Of a stretch of 64,000 nucleotides of DNA, positions 47,018 to 59,868 are shown piece by piece; the first letter of the stretch is position 1; each line of letters starts with the position of its first letter. The notes beneath the pieces were generated by a model. It did not search any database, was not told the DNA's origin, and saw nothing but the letters and a program-made list of their open reading frames with translations. The DNA lies in contig CAIOTF010000012.1 of assembly GCA_903861125.1 (NCBI GenBank), forward strand, positions 1-64,000. The letters are read 5' to 3'. The DNA comes from an uncultured Ignavibacteriota bacterium. GTDB lineage: Bacteria > Bacteroidota > Ignavibacteria > UBA10030 > UBA8401. The position numbers were made by a program, and so were the translations under genes.

Positions 47018-47055
47018 AAAAAAACCCGTTCCAATCATGCTGGAACGGGTTTTTT
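47018..47055. terminator. Bidirectional terminator between permease and Omp85-like gene
   Basis: A perfect 15-bp stem (47019-47033 with 47041-47055) with a 7-nt loop, an A run on one side and a T run on the other. It can close both the permease gene and the convergent tamB operon. Confidence 0.93.
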
Positions 47056-47073: not shown

Positions 47074-50000
47074 TTAGAAGTCTCCGCCGAGTGAAAAATA
47101 ATATTTCGGCACTGAAAATCCGGCTCCGTTATACGACCATGCTACATCTATCTTTAAGGGGAGTCCGAACAGGAACATCCGTACCCCCATACCGGTACCG
47201 ATCAGCATATCCTGCGCTGCAATATTTCCCTGCGAATCCTTCCCGAATCCACGATAGGCTTTCTCCTTCGTCCACGATGACCCAACGTCGAGGAATGTTG
47301 CGCCTGTGATGTTGCCGAGTGCAATGGGAAGACCTCCGGTCACCAGATATTGAATGAACGGATAGCGCAGTTCATAATTCATCAGAGCAAATTTTGTTCC
47401 GTTCTTAACATTATAATTGAAACCGCGCATCGGCAGTGCGGGGGTTAGGAAGGCGAAATCCTCTATATTAACAATTGGAATGCCGCCATTCTCGAATTCA
47501 CGGTTGATCCATCCGTCCGTTCCGCCGATGAAGAAGCGCTGTGCATTCTTACCGGTGCTGACGCCGCCGGAATACCGAAGAACAAATGAATAGTTCTTCC
47601 AGAACTTAAAATATTTCCGGTAATCTCCCGTGAACGTCTGAAAATCGAGCGAATTGCTTCCGAGTTTCGGACTGACCATTGCGTTTATATTATAGCGGGA
47701 ACCGTTGTTCGGAGATGTATATCCCCACAACGTATTATCGTGAACAAAACTTACAGTGGGAATAATGAGTGCCCTCTTCTGGTTCGGACTGGTCGAGTAT
47801 TCAAGATTTTCCCTGAGCAGATTCATCCATGATATTCCGAACTCGAACCGGTTGAAACGGTCAAGCGGCATCGATGCCGTTCCGGCTATCCCCCACGTGC
47901 GAAAACGAAACAGTGCAAGACCGTTTGCATCCTCCAGATATAAAAACCGCGCACTGTGGTATCCCTGTATTCCATAGTCGATAAAATCCGGCAGATAATA
48001 GTAGGCAAGCACATAGTCGCTGTTTTTCAGATCAAGCAGAAGATTGGTCAGGAAATAGATCTGATGATCACCCAGCATATCGCTGAACGCCATCATCGTT
48101 GTACCCTGCACTCCGTAGAACGTGCTGAACGCAGCATTGCCGTACACAATGTCCGGCGAAAAATTCAGTTTATATTTGTTGACGATAAAATTGCTGTCCT
48201 CATCCATGTTTCCGGATATGGACAATGATGTTGTCTTGAGCGACGGAACATATTCCGATTCACGCGGTTTGTCGGTTTCGTCATTAAAGATATAATGGTT
48301 AAAGTCGATCCGGACATTGTCACCGTATACATTGGCTGTATCACTTTTCGTTTCAGTCACACTCTGTACGGAGGATGTATCAACAATCTTTTTCACCAGC
48401 CGGTGCTTTCGCTTCACGTATTCCGTCGGTTCTATCTGCGAACTGTCGAATTTCTTTTCGAAAGGGGTTTTAAGCAGAAAGATATCGAAGCCGGCTTGAT
48501 CCAGCGCCGAATAACAAAGTTTATTTCCATCGGATGAAAGTGAAAGCTGATAGACTCCGGTAATCGAGTTTGTGATGGGTCTGTCCTGCTTCGTCACAAG
48601 ATCCCGTTCATACACATTCCCATTTCCGTTCCGGTCGGACACATACAATAATTTTGTACCGTCCGCCGATACAACGGGTGATGTCTCGTCGCTTTCCTCG
48701 TCGTTCGTAATGCGCTCAATCGTACCGCCGGCCATGTCAAAAGAATAGAGGTCAAGCTGCTTGTAATTGGATCTGACCATTTTAAAATTTGCAGGAAGCA
48801 TGTTCCGCGAAAGATGATCACCTCGGTCCGAAACAAAAAATATTTTGCTACCATCCGGCGACCATACGGGATCCGAATCGGAAAATATGTCGTCCGTAAG
48901 ATTCTTCAATTCTTTTTTTGCTATATCGTATGTGTAAATATCGGATTGATACGATGTATTTCCGACAAAGACAAGCTTATCGCCCGTATGCGACCAGTCA
49001 ACCGTAAAGATTCCTTCCAGATCGAATGCGATCTTTTCCTCGTCGCCGCTGTTCACATCAATTAGATAGATCGCGTCACGTTCACCACTCTTTGCCGAAA
49101 GAGCTATTTTTTTTCCGTCCGGCGACCAGCACATGCCAGGCGTGAGCAGATGAAGTTCTTCAAAATTCTTCGTCCTCTGGCCATCTACCAGTTTCGTAAT
49201 TTTGTTATCGATCGTGGACATGATATAGACGTCGAAGTAATCATCCCTGTCCGAAATGAACGCCACCTTATCGCCCTGCGGAGAGATTGCGGGACTGGTG
49301 TTATAGAAATTATTTTCCTTTACGTGATTCGTCAATCTGGTAGAAAAATCCTCCGGTTCTTCACGTTTAGCAACATCGGGCCAGTAGAGAACTTTCTGCT
49401 CTTTTTGCCACCGTTCGGAAAGTTCTTCCACTGTCAAGCCAAGTGCACTTTTGAATCCTGCATCAACATTGCGCAGACTTTTCATCCGGTGCAGAATTTC
49501 GGCGATCTTCTGTTCTCCGTACTTATTGGCGATATAATAGAACACGGATTGACCGCCGCGATAGGCAAAATACCCGCCGAGCATTTCGATTGGAGGAAGA
49601 TACGTGTGGATTGTTGCATCGCGCATGAACATATCGGAATTCGTATCCCATTTCAACGCTTCGTATTCTGCAAAACCTTCGCTGATCCACATGGGCAGCT
49701 GCAGACGGATATTGTTCGAGATAATGGATTGAATCGAACCACCGTAGAACATGTCGTTCATTACAGCATGCACCAGTTCATGATGGATCACATGCCGGAA
49801 CTGGCGGTAACTTCCTTCAAAAGGAAGAACAACGCGGTTTTTGAACAGCTCCGTCACGCCGCCGATCCCCTCTTCCATATATTCACCGACAACATTGGTC
49901 TGTTGAAAATCGTTGTGCGAATTGTAGACCATTATGGCGATGCGGTTGTTCAATTGATACCGCATGGTCGAGCTGATGGACGTGTAAGCAGATTCCGCAG

Positions 50001-50178
50001 CGATGGCTGTAAAGTTGGCGATGGATGCACCGCCGTCGTAAAAATAGATGTCAAAATGGTTCGTTTGAATGAACGACCATTTGAACGGCTTGTATTGCAC
50101 CTTATTTTTTCCAAAGTTCCCGTCCTGCCCAAAAAGCAATGCTGAGAACAGAACGATACCGATGAATATTTTTTTCAT
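47074..50178 (-). CDS. Peptidase-MA-like / TolB-propeller / Omp85-like barrel fusion
   Basis: The start at 50178 gives 1034 residues with a signal peptide (FSALLFGQ, to about 19). Residues about 35-250 form a gluzincin-type peptidase: HELVH at 133-137 and WISEGFAEYEA with the third ligand Glu167. About 290-580 are TolB/PD40 propeller blades with repeated WSPDGKKI-like motifs and FVSDRGD, YVSDRNGNG. About 640-1034 look like an Omp85/bacterial surface antigen barrel, with the lid-loop motif MRGF at 917-920 and a final DVAWSYNGAGFSVPKYYFSLGGDF (in part PKYYFSLGGDF). There are no POTRA domains. It closes an operon that includes tamB. Confidence 0.82.
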   Translation of the reverse strand: MKKIFIGIVLFSALLFGQDGNFGKNKVQYKPFKWSFIQTNHFDIYFYDGGASIANFTAIAAESAYTSISSTMRYQLNNRIAIMVYNSHNDFQQTNVVGEYMEEGIGGVTELFKNRVVLPFEGSYRQFRHVIHHELVHAVMNDMFYGGSIQSIISNNIRLQLPMWISEGFAEYEALKWDTNSDMFMRDATIHTYLPPIEMLGGYFAYRGGQSVFYYIANKYGEQKIAEILHRMKSLRNVDAGFKSALGLTVEELSERWQKEQKVLYWPDVAKREEPEDFSTRLTNHVKENNFYNTSPAISPQGDKVAFISDRDDYFDVYIMSTIDNKITKLVDGQRTKNFEELHLLTPGMCWSPDGKKIALSAKSGERDAIYLIDVNSGDEEKIAFDLEGIFTVDWSHTGDKLVFVGNTSYQSDIYTYDIAKKELKNLTDDIFSDSDPVWSPDGSKIFFVSDRGDHLSRNMLPANFKMVRSNYKQLDLYSFDMAGGTIERITNDEESDETSPVVSADGTKLLYVSDRNGNGNVYERDLVTKQDRPITNSITGVYQLSLSSDGNKLCYSALDQAGFDIFLLKTPFEKKFDSSQIEPTEYVKRKHRLVKKIVDTSSVQSVTETKSDTANVYGDNVRIDFNHYIFNDETDKPRESEYVPSLKTTSLSISGNMDEDSNFIVNKYKLNFSPDIVYGNAAFSTFYGVQGTTMMAFSDMLGDHQIYFLTNLLLDLKNSDYVLAYYYLPDFIDYGIQGYHSARFLYLEDANGLALFRFRTWGIAGTASMPLDRFNRFEFGISWMNLLRENLEYSTSPNQKRALIIPTVSFVHDNTLWGYTSPNNGSRYNINAMVSPKLGSNSLDFQTFTGDYRKYFKFWKNYSFVLRYSGGVSTGKNAQRFFIGGTDGWINREFENGGIPIVNIEDFAFLTPALPMRGFNYNVKNGTKFALMNYELRYPFIQYLVTGGLPIALGNITGATFLDVGSSWTKEKAYRGFGKDSQGNIAAQDMLIGTGMGVRMFLFGLPLKIDVAWSYNGAGFSVPKYYFSLGGDF

Positions 50179-50228
50179 TCCTACCCCGTTGTTTCTTCTT
50201 GTGCAAATAGAACACAGCCGCAAGCACT

Positions 50229-52403
50229 TTAATTCCTGCGCTGTTTTCCTTTTTTTCTTTTTCCGCCCTCTTTAATATCAGTTTCCGCAAGAACAAAATC
50301 AATCTGCCGGCGTTCCGGTGTTACTTTTGCCACCTTTACCGTGATGGAATCGCCGAGGCGCAGGCGTTTTCCTTTTCGTTCTCCCACCAGAGAATATTGT
50401 TTCTCGTCGAACACGTAATAATCATCATTCAGATCGCGAACATGCAGCATTCCCTCAACAAGAATGTCGTTGATCTCCACGAAAACGCCGTATTGGATAA
50501 CGCCGGAAATAATCCCTTCAAACTCGGCGCCGATATGCTGACGCATATATTCCACTTGCATTACCTTTACTGAATCCCGTTCGGCTTCCGCGGCTACTTT
50601 CTCCCGTTCCGAACAATGCTTGCACATTGCCGGCAGTTCCTTTTTCATCGACTGCTTTCTTTTTTCATTCATCCCCTGCGTAAAATCCCACAGAAGACGG
50701 TGAACCAGAAGATCGGGATACCGGCGTATCGGCGACGTGAAATGGGAATAAAACTCAAACGCCAGACCGAAGTGTCCTATGTTGTCGGTCGAATAGACAG
50801 CTTTTGCCATGCTCCTCAGCGCCACTTCGCTGATAAGGTTCTCTTCTTTCGTTCCCTGGATCTCGACAAGAAGGTGCTGCAATTCTTTAGACGAAGATGA
50901 CTGCGATATGTTTAATTTATGACCGAATTTTCTCACAAATTCTTCAAGTGTTTTGAGTTTTTCCTTGTCCGGCTGGTCGTGAATACGGTAGACGAACGGA
51001 AGTATTTCCCCATCTTTTTGCAGCGTAGAGATATAGGTTGCTACCGTTTGATTTGCCAACAGCATACATTCTTCAACCAATTGATGACTCTTCAAACGCT
51101 TTTTAATGAAGATATCAGCCGGCTTCCCTTTTTCATCGTAGGTAAACTTTGCTTCAGGCGAATCAAAATCGAGGCTGCCGTTCTTCATCCGGTTCTTCCG
51201 CAGCGTTTTTGCAGCGGTCCAAAGATGTTTCAGTTCATCCGAATATTCTCCCGATCCTGCATCAAGGATCTTTTCCGCTTCTTCATACGAGAATCTTTTT
51301 TTCGAATTGATCACGCTCCGCGCAAACTCATATTTCCGCACTCTTCCTTTTTCCGTCACATGCATGAATACGGTATATGTCAGCCGGTCCTTGTGCGGCA
51401 CCAGACTGCAGATATTGTTGGAAAGTTTTTCCGGCAGCATGGGAATAACCTGATTGGCAAGGTACACGCTTGTTCCGCGCGCGAACGCTTCCTGATCCAG
51501 TATACTCCCTTCGGTTACGTACGCACTCACGTCGGCAATATGAACACCGATCCGGAAGGAACCCCCTTCCAGCATTTCGATTGAAAGAGCATCGTCAAAA
51601 TCCTTGGCATCATGCGGATCGATGGTAAGAACGGTGGTCTTGCGTAGATCAAGGCGTCGGGCGATTTCTTCTTTCGGGATTTCGGACGGAATACTTGCCG
51701 CTGCCTGTTCAACCTCTTTGGGAAACGATGTCGGCAGGCGGTACGTCTGGATCACCGAACGCAATTCCACAAATGGATCGCCAGCTGCGCCGAGCGTAGA
51801 TATGATCCGGCCTTCTGGATTCTTGTACGGATCGTCCCACTCCAACAGTTCCACCAGAACTTTATCGCCGGACTCTGCACCGTTCAGATCTTCGGGGGCG
51901 ATATAAAAATCGCGTTTTACTGTCGGATCGTCGGGAAGGACAAAATAAAAATTCTTACTCTTCTGCAGCGTACCGCCAAACTGAGTGTGAGCACGGGAGA
52001 GCACATTCAGCACTTCGCCTGTATCCGGAGTCCCTTCGCTCTTTTTGGATTTTTTCGAGACGAATACCGCCGCTTCAACAACATCACCGTTGAACGCCGT
52101 ATGGAGTGATTGCTTATCGATAATAATCTCGCCGCGCGCAGTAGTCACCACACCGTTTCCACGCTTATCGATCTTCACAGTACCCTGAATCCGGTTGGAA
52201 GTGGAAGCGATGTGATATCCCCTTTGTTTCGTCCATGTCAATATGCCTTCATCAACCATGGCATGAAGAACATCGCGGAGATCTTGAAATTCATCCTCTC
52301 CCGACATGCGGAAAACTCTTCTGAGCTGGCGTGATTTGAATCCGTCTTTCGAACGTTTTGAAAGATAAGCGATGATCTGATCGCGAAGCAGGTTTGTTTT
52401 CAT
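50229..52403 (-). CDS. rnr: Ribonuclease R
   Basis: Processive 3'-5' exoribonuclease that degrades structured RNA. The 724 residues have an N-terminal winged helix (about 5-65), cold-shock domains (about 70-230), the RNB domain with the catalytic acidic cluster in TIDPHDAKDFDDALSIE near 265, and YPDLLVHRLL near 590, then an S1 domain (about 630-710) and a short basic tail (GGKRKKGKQRRN). The gene lies between tamB (8 bp gap) and the Omp85-like fusion (50 bp gap), so all three are probably on one message. Confidence 0.95.
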   Translation of the reverse strand: MKTNLLRDQIIAYLSKRSKDGFKSRQLRRVFRMSGEDEFQDLRDVLHAMVDEGILTWTKQRGYHIASTSNRIQGTVKIDKRGNGVVTTARGEIIIDKQSLHTAFNGDVVEAAVFVSKKSKKSEGTPDTGEVLNVLSRAHTQFGGTLQKSKNFYFVLPDDPTVKRDFYIAPEDLNGAESGDKVLVELLEWDDPYKNPEGRIISTLGAAGDPFVELRSVIQTYRLPTSFPKEVEQAAASIPSEIPKEEIARRLDLRKTTVLTIDPHDAKDFDDALSIEMLEGGSFRIGVHIADVSAYVTEGSILDQEAFARGTSVYLANQVIPMLPEKLSNNICSLVPHKDRLTYTVFMHVTEKGRVRKYEFARSVINSKKRFSYEEAEKILDAGSGEYSDELKHLWTAAKTLRKNRMKNGSLDFDSPEAKFTYDEKGKPADIFIKKRLKSHQLVEECMLLANQTVATYISTLQKDGEILPFVYRIHDQPDKEKLKTLEEFVRKFGHKLNISQSSSSKELQHLLVEIQGTKEENLISEVALRSMAKAVYSTDNIGHFGLAFEFYSHFTSPIRRYPDLLVHRLLWDFTQGMNEKRKQSMKKELPAMCKHCSEREKVAAEAERDSVKVMQVEYMRQHIGAEFEGIISGVIQYGVFVEINDILVEGMLHVRDLNDDYYVFDEKQYSLVGERKGKRLRLGDSITVKVAKVTPERRQIDFVLAETDIKEGGKRKKGKQRRN

Positions 52404-52411
52404 AGAGTATG

Positions 52412-55400
52412 TTAGAATGAAAAGCGATAGAAAAGACGAAGACCGAGAATTGCGTTTGCTTTGATTGCATAGTCGTAGTTCTCAACTTTTCTCTCGACTT
52501 CGATCATGAAATTACGGTTTTGTTTTCCAAGCAGCGGACGTTGGTAGCTAAAATTGGTGTTGTTTACATCATTAAAAACACGACCGCCGACATTGATCTC
52601 TCCGCCCAGCAGTTCGCCGGTTATATTAATATCGGTCGCCGTGGTAACATTGCGCAGTTCAACCCGTTTTACGAACGGGATGTCGTTTTCCTTAATAAAG
52701 TCCATGACAACGCCGGAAAGCAGACTATTAATAAATGTTCCGCCGATCGCTTCGGTTAACTGATTACCCAAACGATTCCGGTCATAGGTGGATAATTCTT
52801 CGCGAAACTGACCGGACTTGTTTGATGATGAAGTGAGCAGGAATGAAATGGCATCATTTTCAACATCACCGAGGCGCGGAATTTCCCTGCCGCTTGCGTC
52901 GACGGTAGCCAGTCCGATTTTTAATTTCGGATTCAGTCGATTTCCGGTGATCTCCAGCGAGACTACAACCTTTTCGGGCTGTTCCTTGCACTCCCCCTTA
53001 TCGAGATCGGGATTTTTACAATGCGTCCCCTCATACTTTGCAAGAATATTCAATTGCGGATTTTGCGGATCTCCGACAAATGTTAAAGATCCAGTTGCCT
53101 TGAATTCTTTATAGAACTTATAATTAGACCCGTCGCCGACATTAATTGTTCCGGTAAGTTGCTGACCCGATTCGTCTTTTTTCAATACCATTTTTCCATT
53201 CAGCTCGGCATACAATTCTTCATACGCTCCTGCATCGGCACTGAAGATCATCTGCACGCGTACGTTTCCCTGCGTTTGTATCGTTAGTTCATATCCGAAT
53301 CCATCCAGGAATGTCCGTTCACTGCCAGCAGGTTTAACGGACGGTGAAATCATTTGTATAATATTTTGCACCACGGCTGTATCGACCATCAATCGTGTAG
53401 TATCATCGACAAAGACAACATCTTCAAACCGCGCCGAAGAATACGTTGCAGATTGCTGCGTTGGCGGAAACGTAATAAACGCATCCTGCACAAGCACTTC
53501 CCCGATAATCCTGGAGTGTTCAAAAGATCCTTCGAATTTAATTCCTGCCCGTCCGGTACGCGCGATCAATTTTCCAAAAAATGACTGGTTCGGTGCACGC
53601 GAAGCATCGGTCAGTACCAGTAATTCTCCGTTAACATTCAGATGATATTCGGAGGGAGCAAAACCTTTCAGTTGAATGAAACCGCCAACGGCCATGGTTC
53701 CATCAGAATATTCCTTGCTGCGGTTACTGATATTAAAACTGGGAAATTGTATCATCTGGCTGTCCAGAACGATCCGTCCCGCAACATTGTATTCAATACC
53801 GGTCATCTCCAAACGAAATGATCCGTCACGCAGATTCAGATCACCGGTCATTAACGGCTTATCCAGCGAACCGGTAATTTTGACCTTTCCGTCGGCATTC
53901 CCGGACATTCGGTCGATCTCCGGTATGAAAATATCGAACATGTCCACCGGAAGGTTGGCGGTTGTCAACTGAACATCCATACCGGAAAGATTGGTCCGAT
54001 CTTCAACGGAGGTAAAGCTAAGGTCGATCGGAACAATACCCGCAAGTTCAAAACTGCTTAGTGTGTCGGCCTTCTGTTTATTGTTCATTTCGACTTTTAT
54101 CCCTGCTCTTTTTCCGGCATAGTTCAGGGCAGCATCAAGATCGCCAAAACTGCTGTTTCGGTACGATATATCTTTCCCTTCCAACTGAGAAATGATCTCC
54201 GGATTTTCAACTGTTCCGCTGATCTTTACAACTCCGTCAATCTTTCCTCCCAACGCAAAAGCTTGTTCCCTAAATTCAGGCGATGTGTTGACAAAAAAGA
54301 TATCGGATAATGCAAAATTTTTGATGGAAGCATCAACCAGAATATCCCCGCGATAACCATACCCCCCTTTTACAACAAACTCTTCGTCCCCCCGGACAAA
54401 AACTGATGAATCGAACGTGATGCCGTTTTGTGTTTGGGTAACAACAAAAGGTGTCGTGTTTTGGATGGAAAAACCCTGATATTTCGCACGAAGTCCGGAA
54501 ATAGTGAAGCGATTAAGAAAATCCGAAACTTCAACTTTTCCTTCCACAGCGGCGCTTATGGTCGTATCGATATCGGTTGCCGCAAAATATCTTCCTTTCC
54601 GATCGTGGAAATCAAAATCGAGTTTCGCCATACGGAAAGCGGTATTGTTTACTTTCAGTTCATCCCCGTTGTATTTCACGGTAATTGAGAGCGAGTCGTT
54701 GGGAGAGATCATCTGTGCAGGAGAGATGTTCTCAAGCGTATAATCCAGACTGGCATTATGCAGACGGATATACGACGATGTATCAGCGTAACTGCCGCGT
54801 ACTAGCCGGATAGTTCCGGCAGAAGATGAGTACACGGTGTCGCTGCGGATCGTCCCCTTTGCCGTTCCAATAAGTTCAAGTTCCGGAAACCGGAAAAAAG
54901 TCGAGATCGGTTTCAGATTTTTCATCCGCAGGTCGTAGGAAAGAGAACTCTTCGTCAGCGGATACGTGTTGAGATGTTCAACGGTATCTTTTTGTGCAAA
55001 CTTCGTTGAGTCAATAATGCCCCGTTGATATGCATATACCTTTTCAAAACCGGCCAGGTGTGTTTGCACGTTGTTCACAATATCGCGTATGGTGAATTTC
55101 CCCGTTACCTCGCCGTCAACCACCGGAGACCGGACCACAAGGTGATCGGTATTGGTGGAATCTTTCAGCCATCTCATCACAATCTGAGCACTGTCGAAGG
55201 ACATTCCGTTGAAATTTGAGTGATGGATATCTATTCTCGTGTCGGAGACATTATCAAAGAGCGATATCCCTTTCCCCGAGCGTTCAATATCAAACGAAAG
55301 ATCCGATGTATAGTAATCATCCCGTACGATCGGTGCAAGATTAAGTCCGTGCACATTACCCGAAAAAGAATATGCCGGAACATTTTCATCCTGAAAATCG

Positions 55401-56917
55401 ATCATAGCCTTCAGCGCAACATTTCCGTCGGGGGATTGAAGGCTAATATCGCTGTTGATCTTCTTTTCATTTGCCTTCAAAGAAACCGTTGTATTGTTCA
55501 AAGGAATGTTTCGGAACGATGAAGAATCTATCTGTATGGTGGCTTCAGCATTCAATGTTGCAAGGGAAACACCTTTTCCTTCAATGTATACCCGCGTATT
55601 CAAATGGGATGCAAGATCGTTCGTTGCGAAGATCTTTTCCAAATTCACGTCGCTCCCGGCAAGGATTCCTTTATAGTGAATGTTTTCTTCTGTAATCACC
55701 ATTTGTCCGTCAACGGTAATAGTGCCGGCGGCCGACTTAATCTTGGAAATTGCAAGAAAATCGAGCGGCTTGCCGATAAACTGGAAATCAATGGTAATAA
55801 GGCCAACGCTTTGATAATCGGGAATGCCGAAATATGGCATCAGCGCAGGAACATCCGACGGCTGTATCGTGCTGTTGGTCGAAACAATATTCAGCCGCAG
55901 ATCATCCGGCTTGTGAATATTCGAGACCGTACCTGACAGCGCCAATGATGAACTTCCGAAACCGGCGTTCAGACTTTTCACGGTAAGATTATCAAAGTTA
56001 CCCTCCATTTCGCTGTCGAAGAGAACATTCCCTTCCATAAAATCAAGCGACGGCAGAAACACCTGCATATCTCTTGATAAAATGTGTGAGGGGGAAACTG
56101 AGAGCGACAAATGGCCCCGGCGCAGATCCTCCATTGTACTGATCGTGAATGCGTCAAGATTATCCATTGAAATGGATGATTTGATGTACGAATCCGGCGT
56201 TGAAATCACCAGATTTTTTATCGTACTGCGCTTTGCGGTGCGGTAAAGATCGGCCGAAAACTGTTTTAACACAAATTTTTCTTTCGGCGATACGAAGGAA
56301 CAATGTGCGACTGTAACATCCAGTTTCTGTTCGGAATACATTCCGTGCAGATCGATATCAATCTTTTCAAGGACAATATTACGATAGTTGATGCTCGGCT
56401 TGCCGTTCCGGTCCACGATCTGACGGTCGAATTCTCCTGTTGAGTCGATAAGATGGAACCGCGCGTTAATAATCCGCACTCGTCCTGCTGTAACAATCAA
56501 CGTTGATTCTGTGGTATCGGCCGGTCGCGGATTCTTTACCAACCGGTTGACATTCCATTCACCATTTTTTCGGCGGGTAAGAGTAATAGATGGATTTTCC
56601 AGTGTTGCCGAATCAATGGTAATTTTATTTCCGATGATATCCAGTAATCTGAACCGTACGGAAATTTTGCCGGACTCCAGAAAGGGGGCGCGGTCAACAT
56701 ACATCATCACAGTATCAACCGTAAAACCGTTGACAATATTTCCGTTGATCTCGCCGATATAAATTTCCGCGTTGATTTCTTTTGCAAGGAAAGTATACAA
56801 TGTCGATCGCACCATTGAGCGGAACATCGGGGTTTGCATGAACAGCCCCAGTCCCCCCGCGAACAGGAGTACGGAAAGAAAAGAATAGAGGAAAAATTTT
56901 GTGACTTTTTTTGTCAT
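52412..56917 (-). CDS. tamB: TamB-like translocation and assembly protein
   Basis: The 1501-residue protein has one N-terminal membrane helix (about 7-28) and then a very long run of beta-rich repeats forming the hydrophobic groove expected of TamB/AsmA-like bridge proteins. The start EINAEIYIGEINGNIVNGF is AsmA-like, and the last 350 residues match DUF490 (TamB C-terminal), for example GDGSNYKFYKEFKATGSL, LNILAKYEGTH and NQLTEAIGGTFINSLLSG. The C-terminus ends GLRLFYRFSF. It works with an Omp85 protein or moves lipids between membranes. It starts 3 bp after the heptose adenylyltransferase gene. Confidence 0.93.
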   Translation of the reverse strand: MTKKVTKFFLYSFLSVLLFAGGLGLFMQTPMFRSMVRSTLYTFLAKEINAEIYIGEINGNIVNGFTVDTVMMYVDRAPFLESGKISVRFRLLDIIGNKITIDSATLENPSITLTRRKNGEWNVNRLVKNPRPADTTESTLIVTAGRVRIINARFHLIDSTGEFDRQIVDRNGKPSINYRNIVLEKIDIDLHGMYSEQKLDVTVAHCSFVSPKEKFVLKQFSADLYRTAKRSTIKNLVISTPDSYIKSSISMDNLDAFTISTMEDLRRGHLSLSVSPSHILSRDMQVFLPSLDFMEGNVLFDSEMEGNFDNLTVKSLNAGFGSSSLALSGTVSNIHKPDDLRLNIVSTNSTIQPSDVPALMPYFGIPDYQSVGLITIDFQFIGKPLDFLAISKIKSAAGTITVDGQMVITEENIHYKGILAGSDVNLEKIFATNDLASHLNTRVYIEGKGVSLATLNAEATIQIDSSSFRNIPLNNTTVSLKANEKKINSDISLQSPDGNVALKAMIDFQDENVPAYSFSGNVHGLNLAPIVRDDYYTSDLSFDIERSGKGISLFDNVSDTRIDIHHSNFNGMSFDSAQIVMRWLKDSTNTDHLVVRSPVVDGEVTGKFTIRDIVNNVQTHLAGFEKVYAYQRGIIDSTKFAQKDTVEHLNTYPLTKSSLSYDLRMKNLKPISTFFRFPELELIGTAKGTIRSDTVYSSSAGTIRLVRGSYADTSSYIRLHNASLDYTLENISPAQMISPNDSLSITVKYNGDELKVNNTAFRMAKLDFDFHDRKGRYFAATDIDTTISAAVEGKVEVSDFLNRFTISGLRAKYQGFSIQNTTPFVVTQTQNGITFDSSVFVRGDEEFVVKGGYGYRGDILVDASIKNFALSDIFFVNTSPEFREQAFALGGKIDGVVKISGTVENPEIISQLEGKDISYRNSSFGDLDAALNYAGKRAGIKVEMNNKQKADTLSSFELAGIVPIDLSFTSVEDRTNLSGMDVQLTTANLPVDMFDIFIPEIDRMSGNADGKVKITGSLDKPLMTGDLNLRDGSFRLEMTGIEYNVAGRIVLDSQMIQFPSFNISNRSKEYSDGTMAVGGFIQLKGFAPSEYHLNVNGELLVLTDASRAPNQSFFGKLIARTGRAGIKFEGSFEHSRIIGEVLVQDAFITFPPTQQSATYSSARFEDVVFVDDTTRLMVDTAVVQNIIQMISPSVKPAGSERTFLDGFGYELTIQTQGNVRVQMIFSADAGAYEELYAELNGKMVLKKDESGQQLTGTINVGDGSNYKFYKEFKATGSLTFVGDPQNPQLNILAKYEGTHCKNPDLDKGECKEQPEKVVVSLEITGNRLNPKLKIGLATVDASGREIPRLGDVENDAISFLLTSSSNKSGQFREELSTYDRNRLGNQLTEAIGGTFINSLLSGVVMDFIKENDIPFVKRVELRNVTTATDINITGELLGGEINVGGRVFNDVNNTNFSYQRPLLGKQNRNFMIEVERKVENYDYAIKANAILGLRLFYRFSF

Positions 56918-56920
56918 TAT

Positions 56921-57403
56921 TTATTTCTTGCCGAAACGGGACACGATCGTATCAACAATATTCGAAGTGGACCGGTCGGGCACAAATTCAATGGTCTGCA
57001 CTTTCCCGCCGGCATGCTCAACAACATCCTTCCCTACGATCGCATCCAAAGAATAATCAGCCCCTTTAACAAGAATATCGGGCAGAAGAAGTGAGATAAT
57101 GTTGTACGGCGTATCTTCGTCAAAAAGGGAGACAGCGTCGACACAGACAAGCTGGGAAAGAATAAACGCGCGGTCTTCCTGTTGAACAATCGGACGAAGC
57201 TCACCTTTGATCCGTTTCACCGAGGCATCGCTGTTCATACCGACGATCAGCCGGCCGCCAAGCGCTCTTGCCTGAGTCAGATATTCAATATGCCCGCGGT
57301 GCAGAATATCAAAGACGCCGTTCGTGAAAACAACGGTGAGCCCTTGGTCTTTCCAGAGCTTCCGCTGTTCCGCCAGCAATGATTGTGTATAGACTTTTCC
57401 CAT
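56921..57403 (-). CDS. hldE2/rfaE2: D-glycero-beta-D-manno-heptose 1-phosphate adenylyltransferase
   Basis: Makes ADP-heptose for the lipopolysaccharide inner core. The 160 residues form a nucleotidyltransferase domain with the signature TNGVFDILHRGHIEYL, then GMNSDASVKRIKG and PDILVKGADYSLD. In E. coli this is the C-terminal half of HldE; here it is a separate gene whose ATG overlaps the kinase stop (TAATG). Presence of the pair indicates a heptose-containing LPS or glycan. Confidence 0.92.
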   Translation of the reverse strand: MGKVYTQSLLAEQRKLWKDQGLTVVFTNGVFDILHRGHIEYLTQARALGGRLIVGMNSDASVKRIKGELRPIVQQEDRAFILSQLVCVDAVSLFDEDTPYNIISLLLPDILVKGADYSLDAIVGKDVVEHAGGKVQTIEFVPDRSTSNIVDTIVSRFGKK

Positions 57404-58419
57404 TAGACTGAATATTCCAGCATGGTGGATCGTAAGAGAGCGGGATCGATAGGTATAATGCCGACTTCACCGCACACGATTCCTCCGGCAACGTTCGAAA
57501 GCATTGCCGATTCTGCAATCGTTCCTCCGGCGCAAAGAACCGCTGTGAGTGTTGCAATGACCGTATCGCCGGCACCGGAAACATCGGCCACCTTGCGTGC
57601 GTGTGTGGGAATATGAGTGATCGTTCCGTCCTTCTGAAACAAACTCATTCCCTTTTCGCTGCGCGTCAGCAAAATATTCTCCGCACTCAATCGCTGCAGA
57701 AGCGCTCTTCCTGCCGCGGTCACATCGTCATCCGTCGATAATTTTTTACCGAGCGCCTCTTCCGTCTCTTTCTTATTCGGCTTAAAGACCGTCACATTGG
57801 TGTATTCAAAAAAATTGTTGAACTTCGGATCGATGGTGATGATCTTATTGTGTTTGTTCGCAAGCTGAATGATCCTTCGGATCAGTTCCGTTACGATAAC
57901 CCCTTTGTTGTAGTCCTCGATTATAATCCCGTCAATCGTGTCGATGTTCTTTTCAATAACTGCATACAGCTTCTGCTGGATTGAAAAATCTACATCCTTT
58001 TTCTCTTCGCTGTCGATCCGCACAACGTGCTGATTATGAGCAATCACCCGTGTCTTTACGGTTGTAGGCCGTGCAGGATCGGTTACTATTCCGTCCGAAG
58101 TGGTCTTTTGTTGCTGCAGTTCGGTGCGGAATTCCTTGCCGCTGATATCATCGCCGACCACACCGATCAGAAACGCCGATGCGCCGAGCGAGACAATATT
58201 GGTAGCCACGTTTGCGGCGCCGCCAAGGCGCGAGGATTCGCTTTCCACTTCCACCACAGGAACGGGTGCTTCGGGAGAGATACGGTTCACCGTACCCCAT
58301 ACATAGCGGTCGATCATTACATCGCCGATTACGGCGATCCGCTGTGTCTTTACTTTTGAAAGAAGTTCATCTATCCGTTGCTGCGTTAAAGAGATCATGG
58401 TATCCGATAATTTTTGCAT
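57403..58419 (-). CDS. hldE1/rfaE1: D-glycero-D-manno-heptose 7-phosphate kinase
   Basis: PfkB-family kinase that phosphorylates heptose 7-phosphate at C1. The chosen start at 58419 gives 338 residues (MQKLSDTM); 58398 (MISLTQQRI) is also possible, and the frame goes back to 58458 without support. Marks are IAVIGDVMIDRYVWG, SRLGGAANVATNIVSLGAS and the catalytic DVSGAGDTVIATLTAVL. It leads the group rfaE1-rfaE2-tamB-rnr-Omp85-like. Confidence 0.93.
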   Translation of the reverse strand: MQKLSDTMISLTQQRIDELLSKVKTQRIAVIGDVMIDRYVWGTVNRISPEAPVPVVEVESESSRLGGAANVATNIVSLGASAFLIGVVGDDISGKEFRTELQQQKTTSDGIVTDPARPTTVKTRVIAHNQHVVRIDSEEKKDVDFSIQQKLYAVIEKNIDTIDGIIIEDYNKGVIVTELIRRIIQLANKHNKIITIDPKFNNFFEYTNVTVFKPNKKETEEALGKKLSTDDDVTAAGRALLQRLSAENILLTRSEKGMSLFQKDGTITHIPTHARKVADVSGAGDTVIATLTAVLCAGGTIAESAMLSNVAGGIVCGEVGIIPIDPALLRSTMLEYSV

Positions 58420-58480
58420 TATTATTAAGAATATAGCCAATAAACCAGCGAGTATCAATTTGGGAACGCCTTTTAAAATA

Positions 58481-58509
58481 CAAAATCCCGCAGTTTTTGC
58501 GGGATTTTG
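58481..58509. terminator. Terminator between the T9SS cargo gene and rfaE1
   Basis: A perfect 12-bp stem (58481-58492 with 58498-58509) with a 5-nt loop, followed on the minus strand by a T-rich stretch. It lies 25 bp beyond the stop of the cargo gene and separates it from the heptose-tamB group. Confidence 0.88.
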
Positions 58510-58533: not shown

Positions 58534-59868
58534 TTATTTAAGCAGCATCATCTTCTTGGTCTGTGTGAAACCATTCGATGTTTTCAATGTATAGAAATAC
58601 ATTCCTGAAGAAAGATTCTTTCCGTTCATGTCCGCTGTATACGAACCGGCCGAAAATTCACCTTCAACAAGTGTTGCAACTTCTTTTCCAAGCATATCGT
58701 ACACTTTTAAGCTTACGGTAACATTCGACGGAACCGTAAATTTAATCTGCGTGGATGGATTGAACGGGTTCGGATAGTTCTGCATCAACTGATAATCCGA
58801 CACAACAATACCATCTTCGCGATGCACGCCTGCAGCCTGCGATTTTCCAACAAACATCTGAACGCATGCTTCTGCGCTGACGTTAAAAGCACAGATATAC
58901 GCTGTATCACCGGTGTTGCTGAATGCAATACCGCGCGGACGAGGATCGTTGGTCAGCAAGTTTGCGCTGCTCCATTTAATACTGTCAACGGGAGTATTGA
59001 AATTGGGTGATTTGAATGCATAAAAACTATAATCCGTGAACGGAGCCAGGTTGGCGCCCGATGTTGCATTGCCGCCGCCGGCCCAGAGATAGCCTGTTTT
59101 TGGATGCCATCCGAAGCACTCTACTGTAAGACCTTTCATTACTGTATCAATTGTGCTGTACGGTCCAAGTGATCCGTTCGCGCTGTGATAGCGTGTCACC
59201 TTGTTATTCGTGAAGCCTCCAAAGTAAACGTCGTTACCGTCTTTCGAAACGGCAAGAGTACGCGAGAAACCGCGGCTCGTGTCTACAACGTTGCCTAGAA
59301 AACTGAAACTTCCATCAAAAATACGGATTGGTCCGACACCGTCCGAAACGTTCGCTGTGAACATTTCATTCAGATCGTCAAAAGCAGGCTGCGTTTGTGA
59401 TGCAACTTGCGGACTAACCTTGTCAATTCCGGCACCGGTTTTGTAATTAATGCGGTACAGGTTACCTGTGCGGGTCGGATTAGCCAAATTATTGGCAACA
59501 ACGATGTTTCCGTTTTTATCTCTTGCAATACCGCGGTTATTGCCGGCATACAATGTTTCTGCAACGGATTTGATCGTCAAGATCCTGATCGGCGAGAACG
59601 AAGCCGGTGTACCGTTTGCATTATAGACGCGAATCGGAATTGTTGCTTTGTACGTGCTTCCAACAAGCATACTGTCTGCATCAGAATAACGAACGATCCA
59701 AACTTTTCCGTCAGGATCAACAGCGACTCCGTGTGCGCCGTTAGCGACCTTAAAGCCGGTATCAGGAAATGCTTTCGAGAACGCGTACTTGTACACTGTT
59801 GTTTGCGCTGAAGCGACGAACGCAAACATCAGGACAAGACCGAACAAAAACATTAAACGTGATTTCAT
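58534..59868 (-). CDS. Type IX secretion cargo with beta-propeller domain
   Basis: The 444-residue protein has a signal peptide (ending FVASAQ, about 21) and a central part resembling NHL/SMP-30-like propeller blades (GVAVDPDGKVWIVRYSD, GIARDKNGNIVVANN, GIAFSNTGDTAYICAF). The last 85 residues are a type A sorting domain: YQLMQNYPNPFNPSTQIKF, VYDMLGKEVATLVEGEFSAG (part) and SGMYFYTLKTSNGFTQTKKM. So it is exported through the type IX system and its C-terminal domain cut off. Function outside the cell is unknown. Confidence 0.9.
   Translation of the reverse strand: MKSRLMFLFGLVLMFAFVASAQTTVYKYAFSKAFPDTGFKVANGAHGVAVDPDGKVWIVRYSDADSMLVGSTYKATIPIRVYNANGTPASFSPIRILTIKSVAETLYAGNNRGIARDKNGNIVVANNLANPTRTGNLYRINYKTGAGIDKVSPQVASQTQPAFDDLNEMFTANVSDGVGPIRIFDGSFSFLGNVVDTSRGFSRTLAVSKDGNDVYFGGFTNNKVTRYHSANGSLGPYSTIDTVMKGLTVECFGWHPKTGYLWAGGGNATSGANLAPFTDYSFYAFKSPNFNTPVDSIKWSSANLLTNDPRPRGIAFSNTGDTAYICAFNVSAEACVQMFVGKSQAAGVHREDGIVVSDYQLMQNYPNPFNPSTQIKFTVPSNVTVSLKVYDMLGKEVATLVEGEFSAGSYTADMNGKNLSSGMYFYTLKTSNGFTQTKKMMLLK

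Follow-up and report, generated by a model that had tools for sequence, protein, structure and literature searches.

A gluzincin-type peptidase and a TolB-like propeller predicted on a POTRA-less Omp85-type barrel, encoded beside tamB in an uncultured Ignavibacteriota bacterium

Omp85 proteins with a propeller have been recognized since 2014, when Heinz and Lithgow named the WD40-Omp85 group and likened it to a BamA–BamB fusion (PMC4104836). We describe a gene, omp, in a 64,000-nucleotide stretch of DNA from an uncultured Ignavibacteriota bacterium (hereafter the window; part of contig 12 of a 4.19 Mb genome, GenBank contig CAIOTF010000012.1), whose product, assigned to that group by its domain architecture, shares with it the Omp85 barrel, the N-terminal WD40/TolB-like propeller, and the lack of POTRA. 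It differs in having a peptidase domain, a word absent from the main text of that paper, and the sections of the paper covered here contain neither linkage with tamB nor a trio of copies. In the open-licence literature, supplements excluded, we found no paper on a peptidase–propeller–Omp85 fusion beyond PMC4104836, nor any on the tamB linkage or the trio. As far as this literature goes, we regard the peptidase on a WD40-Omp85 protein, the linkage with tamB, and two further copies as new, the WD40-Omp85 type itself being known.

Other described systems resemble the omp protein in part (statements on cited papers refer to the portions covered here). TamA and TamL have in common with it a 16-strand Omp85 barrel and a gene near tamB; they differ in that the omp protein has no POTRA, has an additional peptidase and propeller, and is accompanied by a separate TamL/TamA-like protein in the same genome. 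The linkage is a feature of omp and not of Bacteroidota tamL itself: in Flavobacterium johnsoniae TamL copurifies with TamB, and tamL and tamB are not in an operon, whereas TamL2 and TamB2 are (PMC12045153). In the TamAB structure of Escherichia coli the POTRAs bind TamB, and deletion of POTRA2 is lethal (PMC12800296). In PlpD, too, an enzyme domain precedes the Omp85 barrel; it is a patatin lipase and is accompanied by a POTRA, whereas the omp protein has a zinc peptidase and a propeller and lacks POTRA. The lipase of PlpD lies in the periplasm (PMC11116518). BepA, an M48 protein beside the β-barrel assembly machinery (BAM), is a precedent for a metalloprotease serving BAM and is proposed to act on stalled outer-membrane proteins (PMC13067283); it is a separate protein, whereas the omp peptidase is built into the barrel protein, and we liken the two by role and not by M48 kinship. 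Another protein considered was BamP, a subunit of the BAM complex in F. johnsoniae with a loop that reaches into the BamA barrel; the word peptidase is absent from the paper on that complex.

Computation establishes three domains in the omp protein, an invariant zinc-site motif, an old linkage of its gene with tamB and rnr, and two full-length paralogues. Our preferred reading of the models, tentative and given slightly less than an even chance, is that omp encodes a periplasmic metalloprotease anchored in the outer membrane by a 16-strand Omp85 barrel that lacks POTRA and carries a gluzincin-type peptidase together with a TolB-like propeller. This protease would stand beside the translocation and assembly module (TAM) and not replace TamA.

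Domain architecture and conservation of the omp protein

The gene and its parts, all on the minus strand, are as follows.

47074..50178, minus strand: omp, peptidase–propeller–Omp85 fusion of 1034 amino acids, ATG at 50178 (domain models, structure prediction)
50125..50178, minus strand: probable signal peptide, residues 1–18 (hydrophobic N-terminus of low conservation, judged by eye)
49354..50079, minus strand: predicted gluzincin-type metallopeptidase domain, residues 34–275 (PF13485, model confidence, fold matches)
49768..49782, minus strand: HExxH motif HELVH, H133 E134 L135 V136 H137
49678..49680, minus strand: E167 in W-x-x-E-G, presumed third zinc ligand by comparison with gluzincins
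48448..49353, minus strand: TolB-like propeller, residues 276–577 (PD40; match to TolB 1c5k)
48175..48423, minus strand: helix and disordered linker without POTRA, residues 586–668
47077..48162, minus strand: predicted 16-strand Omp85-type barrel, residues 673–1034 (AlphaFold2 strands; TamA and BamA barrel matches)
47419..47430, minus strand: M-R-G-F motif, residues 917–920, in the long loop that connects strand 11 to strand 12

An alternative TTG start is open 15 codons upstream of the ATG. The structure was predicted with AlphaFold2 from an alignment of the window and 62 named loci (A2, 63 rows), which also served for conservation, and reached a mean predicted local distance difference test score (pLDDT) of 82.2 and a predicted template-modelling score of 0.80. 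By hmmscan the protein matches PD40 (82 bits) and Peptidase_MA_2 (PF13485, 47.4 bits), both over their cut-offs. The peptidase domain folded alone has a pLDDT of 88.7, and among the 50 fold matches listed (Z 17.2–12.7) are bacterial collagenase peptidase domains (Z 17.2), M30 (15.3), and M1 (14.2), on which we base its assignment to the gluzincin type; in the model it combines the HExxH motif, the downstream glutamate, and the fold of the MA clan. None of the 63 rows departs from H133, E134, H137, or E167. With a mean column conservation of 0.78, the peptidase is the most conserved domain, ahead of the propeller (0.67) and the barrel (0.65); the linker has 0.36.

PF00149, which we take to be the calcineurin-like phosphoesterase domain, is the domain of another Omp85 subfamily, 'Metallo'. 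That subfamily is termed metalloprotease-Omp85 and in this resembles the omp protein, from which it differs in having PF00149 instead of Peptidase_MA_2 (PMC4104836); given what we take PF00149 to be, its members may not be proteases.

The propeller superimposes on TolB 1c5k with Z 27.9 and a root-mean-square deviation of 2.2 over 244 aligned residues; it shares the fold with TolB and differs in lying inside a fusion and in scoring 145.6 bits with the TolB model TIGR02800, below the cut-off of 343. We considered the omp protein as the genome's substitute for TolB, since no protein of the genome passes the model cut-off for TolB, a cut-off passed by only 2 of 14 controls and thus too strict to decide the matter.

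Sixteen barrel strands were counted manually on the AlphaFold2 strand list between residues 673 and 1030. The TamA barrel 4n74 has the top target-normalised template-modelling score (0.73) among the barrel matches listed, and BamA structures reach Z 25.9. In the genome scan the C-terminal stretch matches Omp85 (PF01103; 43.9 bits, cut-off 24); this model is absent from the hmmscan list of the whole protein and is listed for 5 of 24 orthologues (alignment A1, the window and 23 of 40 near loci). An R-G-F/Y motif in loop L6 is a hallmark of the Omp85 superfamily; here R918 and G919 are invariant in the 63 rows, and position 920 is Y in 48, F in 11, and H in 4. POTRA gave no model match by hmmscan of the protein and none is seen in the AlphaFold2 model, and a POTRA hidden in the linker was rejected given that the linker is disordered in that model (pLDDT below 50 at residues 600–651). 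The NCBIfam models for TamA (20.2 bits, cut-off 625) and TamL (18.8 bits, cut-off 400) are likewise far from matched. A first-pass annotation, made from the sequence alone, had noted HELVH, E167, and an MRGF-type barrel, which are confirmed here with HELVH at residues 133–137, E167 as given, and MRGF at 917–920; its POTRA-less combination of peptidase, PD40/TolB-like propeller, and barrel is borne out by hmmscan and AlphaFold2, and the structure predicted for the 1034-residue protein alone does contain the 16-strand barrel whose lack it had named as grounds for dropping its proposal.

An omp match is present in all 41 genomes of the near sample (own genome included), the best row having at least 54% identity in 40 and one genome (G024) having only a more distant copy. 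Among the 296 genomes of the phylum sample 283 have some match, many of them weak, and 148, counted by eye from the match table, reach 600 bits or more. For the named loci we took the best 80 of 391 matches, the complete protein being read from 68 of the 80; the titles of these best 80 are Ignavibacteria, Ignavibacteriales, Bacteroidetes/Bacteroidota, or Kryptonia, with a few others. Rows left out of alignments were L225 (A3), L249 (A6), and L263, L268, L272, and L276 (A7).

The tamB–rnr–omp cluster

In the window omp is the last gene of an operon in the order rfaE1–rfaE2–tamB–rnr–omp, all on the minus strand.

57403..58458, minus strand: rfaE1, heptose-7-phosphate kinase (TIGR02198, 387 bits; TTG start, ATG at 58419)
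56921..57403, minus strand: rfaE2, heptose-1-phosphate adenylyltransferase (TIGR02199, 198 bits)
52412..56917, minus strand: tamB, 1501 amino acids (PF04357, 97 bits)
50229..52403, minus strand: rnr, RNase R (TIGR02063, 803 bits)
47018..47055, no strand assigned: hairpin flanked by T runs on either side, terminator at the operon end (fold energy and z-score)

The order, strand, and gaps of −1, 3, 8, and 50 bp given in the first-pass annotation agree with the coordinates of the open reading frames (ORFs), the family models match its assignments of rfaE1, rfaE2, tamB, and rnr, each with a score above the model cut-off, and the terminator it saw at the operon end is a strong hairpin (−24.1 kcal/mol in a 71-nt segment, z −5.7). 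A consensus terminator scan did not include this hairpin among its 15 sites (12.2 expected by chance); it gave six weak minus-strand sites within the operon and a strong site at 58509–58481 just ahead of it.

The window tamB is the sole match in a protein search of its own genome. A scan of the genome with the PF04357 profile missed it, even though hmmscan of the TamB protein scores 97 bits, over the cut-off; negative genome scans for TamB with PF04357 are therefore unsafe, and we used profiles of local TamB proteins instead, which match in 288 of the 296 genomes of the phylum sample.

By manual count, 28 of the 40 near loci, which come from 39 genomes, have rnr collinear with omp (side by side in 27 and separated by 2.5 kb at L082); of the remainder, the cluster adjoins omp in inverted orientation in 3, is unlinked in 6, and is cut by contig ends in 3. 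Of the best 80 named loci, 59 include 3 kb of upstream sequence, and 35 of these have rnr on the same strand no more than 1 kb away; tamB is present in 39 of the 80, or in 15 of the 28 loci that extend 9 kb to either side. At 40 chosen loci outside the order, tamB and rnr (13 of 40 each) are the commonest neighbors, most other clusters being unassigned to a family. Distances to tamB were counted in 93 of the 148 genomes with an omp match of at least 600 bits, namely those with TamB among the matches listed, a set biased toward strong TamB matches: tamB lies at most 5 kb from omp in 43. The gap is 2,036–3,024 bp, the size of rnr, in 42 of these 43 and 958 bp in the other; rnr itself was seen only in the fetched loci and not in this count. 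Fragmented assemblies can mask linkage, as in G103, scored as unlinked although the end of TamB adjoins rnr at a contig end.

Some linked families lie elsewhere in the phylum, outside the class of the window (f21 and f32; f31, f47, and f52). Given this spread over several families, the tamB–rnr–omp cluster is old and has been lost or rearranged in many families. The conserved linkage with tamB, whose lack the first-pass annotation had named as contrary evidence, thus stands for several families, some outside the class of the window, and fails in many others.

A separate POTRA-bearing Omp85 and two further copies

The genome scan gave nine Omp85 matches in the genome of the window. BamA, at L010, is over its model cut-off with 428 bits. 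A protein of 684 amino acids at L011:2507-4558 has POTRA and Omp85 domains; its best NCBIfam match is TamL (171.9 bits, below the cut-off of 400), ahead of BamA (149.3 bits), and each of the 20 proteins in its alignment is matched by the TamL, BamA, and TamA models alike. No lipobox was seen in its first residues, and no tamB lies beside it in this genome. From these sequence matches we regard it as TamL/TamA-like and as a candidate TamA. A relative is clear in 40 of the 41 near genomes, in some in pieces, G019 having a weak match only, and we rejected the idea of a genome without any POTRA-bearing partner for TamB. In the phylum sample a TamL-like profile matched 273 of 296 genomes; outside the order many of these matches are weak or in pieces, and there TamL-like proteins and BamA are not distinguishable.

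The remaining Omp85 proteins of the genome include a second POTRA Omp85 at L013, a patatin–POTRA–Omp85 protein of PlpD type at L012:2877-5750 (contig 39), and a protein of 465 amino acids at L015:4665-6059 (contig 18) that matches POTRA once and was picked up as Omp85 by the genome scan. At L017:3048-4715 (contig 13), a protein of 556 amino acids pairs, unusually, a weak Bactofilin match below cut-off with an Omp85 barrel match over cut-off.

We do not file the omp protein as TamA, because the genome has a separate TamL/TamA-like POTRA protein, the TamL of F. johnsoniae copurifies with TamB, and POTRAs bind TamB. The more likely TamA-type partner of TamB is the separate POTRA-bearing protein at L011. 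The survey of related genomes suggested in the first-pass annotation thus found adjacency with tamB in part, together with the separate POTRA Omp85; the replacement of TamA by the omp protein is not supported, and the canonical POTRA-bearing TamA that it had listed as contrary evidence is largely supplied by L011, which is TamL/TamA-like and not a proven TamA.

Two further copies of the omp architecture are encoded in the same genome. Copy 2 (L016:4606-7422, contig 18, 939 amino acids) scores 355 bits in BLASTP and aligns by profile comparison over 886 columns; copy 3 (L238:2593-5874, contig 17, 1094 amino acids) scores 154 bits and aligns over 890 columns. Only 2 of 17 members of copy 3 match the Omp85 model, and its barrel is therefore assigned from the profile comparison. 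The HExxH and W-x-x-E-G motifs are intact in 20 of 20 reads of copy 2 and in 18 of 20 of copy 3, the other two being mis-called ORFs. Other propeller ORFs, in six stretches of the same genome, show no HExxH followed by W-x-x-E-G; two weak matches (contig 31, and contig 54 at 116708) were left out.

Copy 2 is directly followed by a BamB-like gene (L016:3329-4603; TIGR03300 160.5 bits, cut-off 285), and the two are adjacent in 20 of 20 relatives from the near-sample match list; a lipobox pattern is present in 10 of 20 reads of the BamB-like protein, four of the other ten being mis-called ORFs. At the locus of copy 3 (L238:2593-9372) are an LptF/LptG pair and a neighbor that weakly matches DUF5683, and LptF/LptG are in the same locus of about 11 kb in 13 of 20 relatives. 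The three copies thus lie beside three different outer-membrane assembly routes, a pattern noticed afterwards and not predicted. It is conceivable, though we consider it doubtful, that they form a family of three proteases, each on an Omp85-type barrel and tied to TAM (copy 1, by tamB), BAM (copy 2, by the BamB-like gene), and lipopolysaccharide export (copy 3, by LptF/LptG), as dedicated built-in proteases for quality control or maturation at assembly sites.

Possible roles of the omp protein

Since an Omp85 barrel has both its ends on the periplasmic side, the peptidase and propeller are expected on that side. We propose that these two domains would work in the periplasm, anchored by the barrel, where the propeller may dock clients or partners and the peptidase may cut stalled or misassembled outer-membrane proteins or trim factors of the co-expressed machinery. 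The place of the omp protein next to TAM would resemble that of BepA next to BAM in E. coli. In our judgment the omp protein is more likely an accessory of TAM, serving the biogenesis or quality control of the outer membrane, than a replacement of TamA. Several observations weigh against this assignment. No linkage with tamB was seen in 50 of the 93 genomes (on another contig in 43, far off on the same contig in 7), and 22 of 26 families are all-or-none for it; rnr and rfaE show that neighbors in this operon need not be partners. The peptidase domain scores weakly in Foldseek, with 7 matches at E ≤0.001 and a best E of 1.3e-4. Rate covariation with TamB, with the rnr signal removed (14 genomes, without rfaE1), singles out no single partner: r is highest for the TamL-like protein (0.60), followed by the omp barrel (0.53), the whole omp protein (0.46), and the propeller alone (0.06), and the whole omp protein and the TamL-like protein correlate at 0.38 (14 genomes). 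The propeller value aside, each of these correlations beats nearly all of 2000 permutations, and the test is thus not specific.

The first-pass annotation put the omp protein forward as a possible outer-membrane partner of TamB, its barrel pairing with the TamB C-terminus and the propeller and peptidase taking the place of POTRA. The top score of the TamA barrel among the matches listed fits this proposal, as does the old tamB–rnr–omp linkage, whereas L011 has no tamB beside it; we nonetheless think it improbable in view of the POTRA protein with a clear relative in 40 of 41 near genomes, the binding of TamB by POTRAs (PMC12800296), and the copurification of TamL with TamB from genes outside one operon (PMC12045153). 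The distribution points the same way, TamB being matched in 288 of the 296 phylum genomes and omp at 600 bits or more in only 148. The two paralogues of the omp protein at other loci and the families without tamB linkage also count against a replacement of TamA. If the operon merely reflects shared housekeeping expression, the omp protein could instead be an outer-membrane protease maturing secreted or surface proteins, such as cargo with C-terminal sorting domains: an RNase R gene stands between tamB and omp, many families keep omp without tamB linkage, and the gene at 58534–59868 beside the operon, as read in the window, ends in a sorting domain of the PNPFNP type. We hold this to be unlikely, given that each of the three copies lies beside envelope-assembly genes in this order and that no neighbor is commoner than tamB and rnr at the loci outside it, where most other clusters are unassigned. 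The barrel and propeller would also suit an outer-membrane protein assembly factor, the BamA–BamB-like fusion suggested for WD40-Omp85 proteins (PMC4104836), with a peptidase that is merely structural; a scaffold has no need of a peptidase that is the most conserved domain and keeps its zinc motif in 63 of 63 rows, and we regard this as very improbable.

If our preferred reading of omp as a TAM-associated, barrel-anchored metalloprotease is correct, proteolysis would be built into outer-membrane assembly in these bacteria, whereas E. coli uses separate proteases such as BepA. The omp protein would then be a concrete candidate for the removal of stalled outer-membrane proteins outside Proteobacteria; its gene is, in any case, a conserved one beside tamB.

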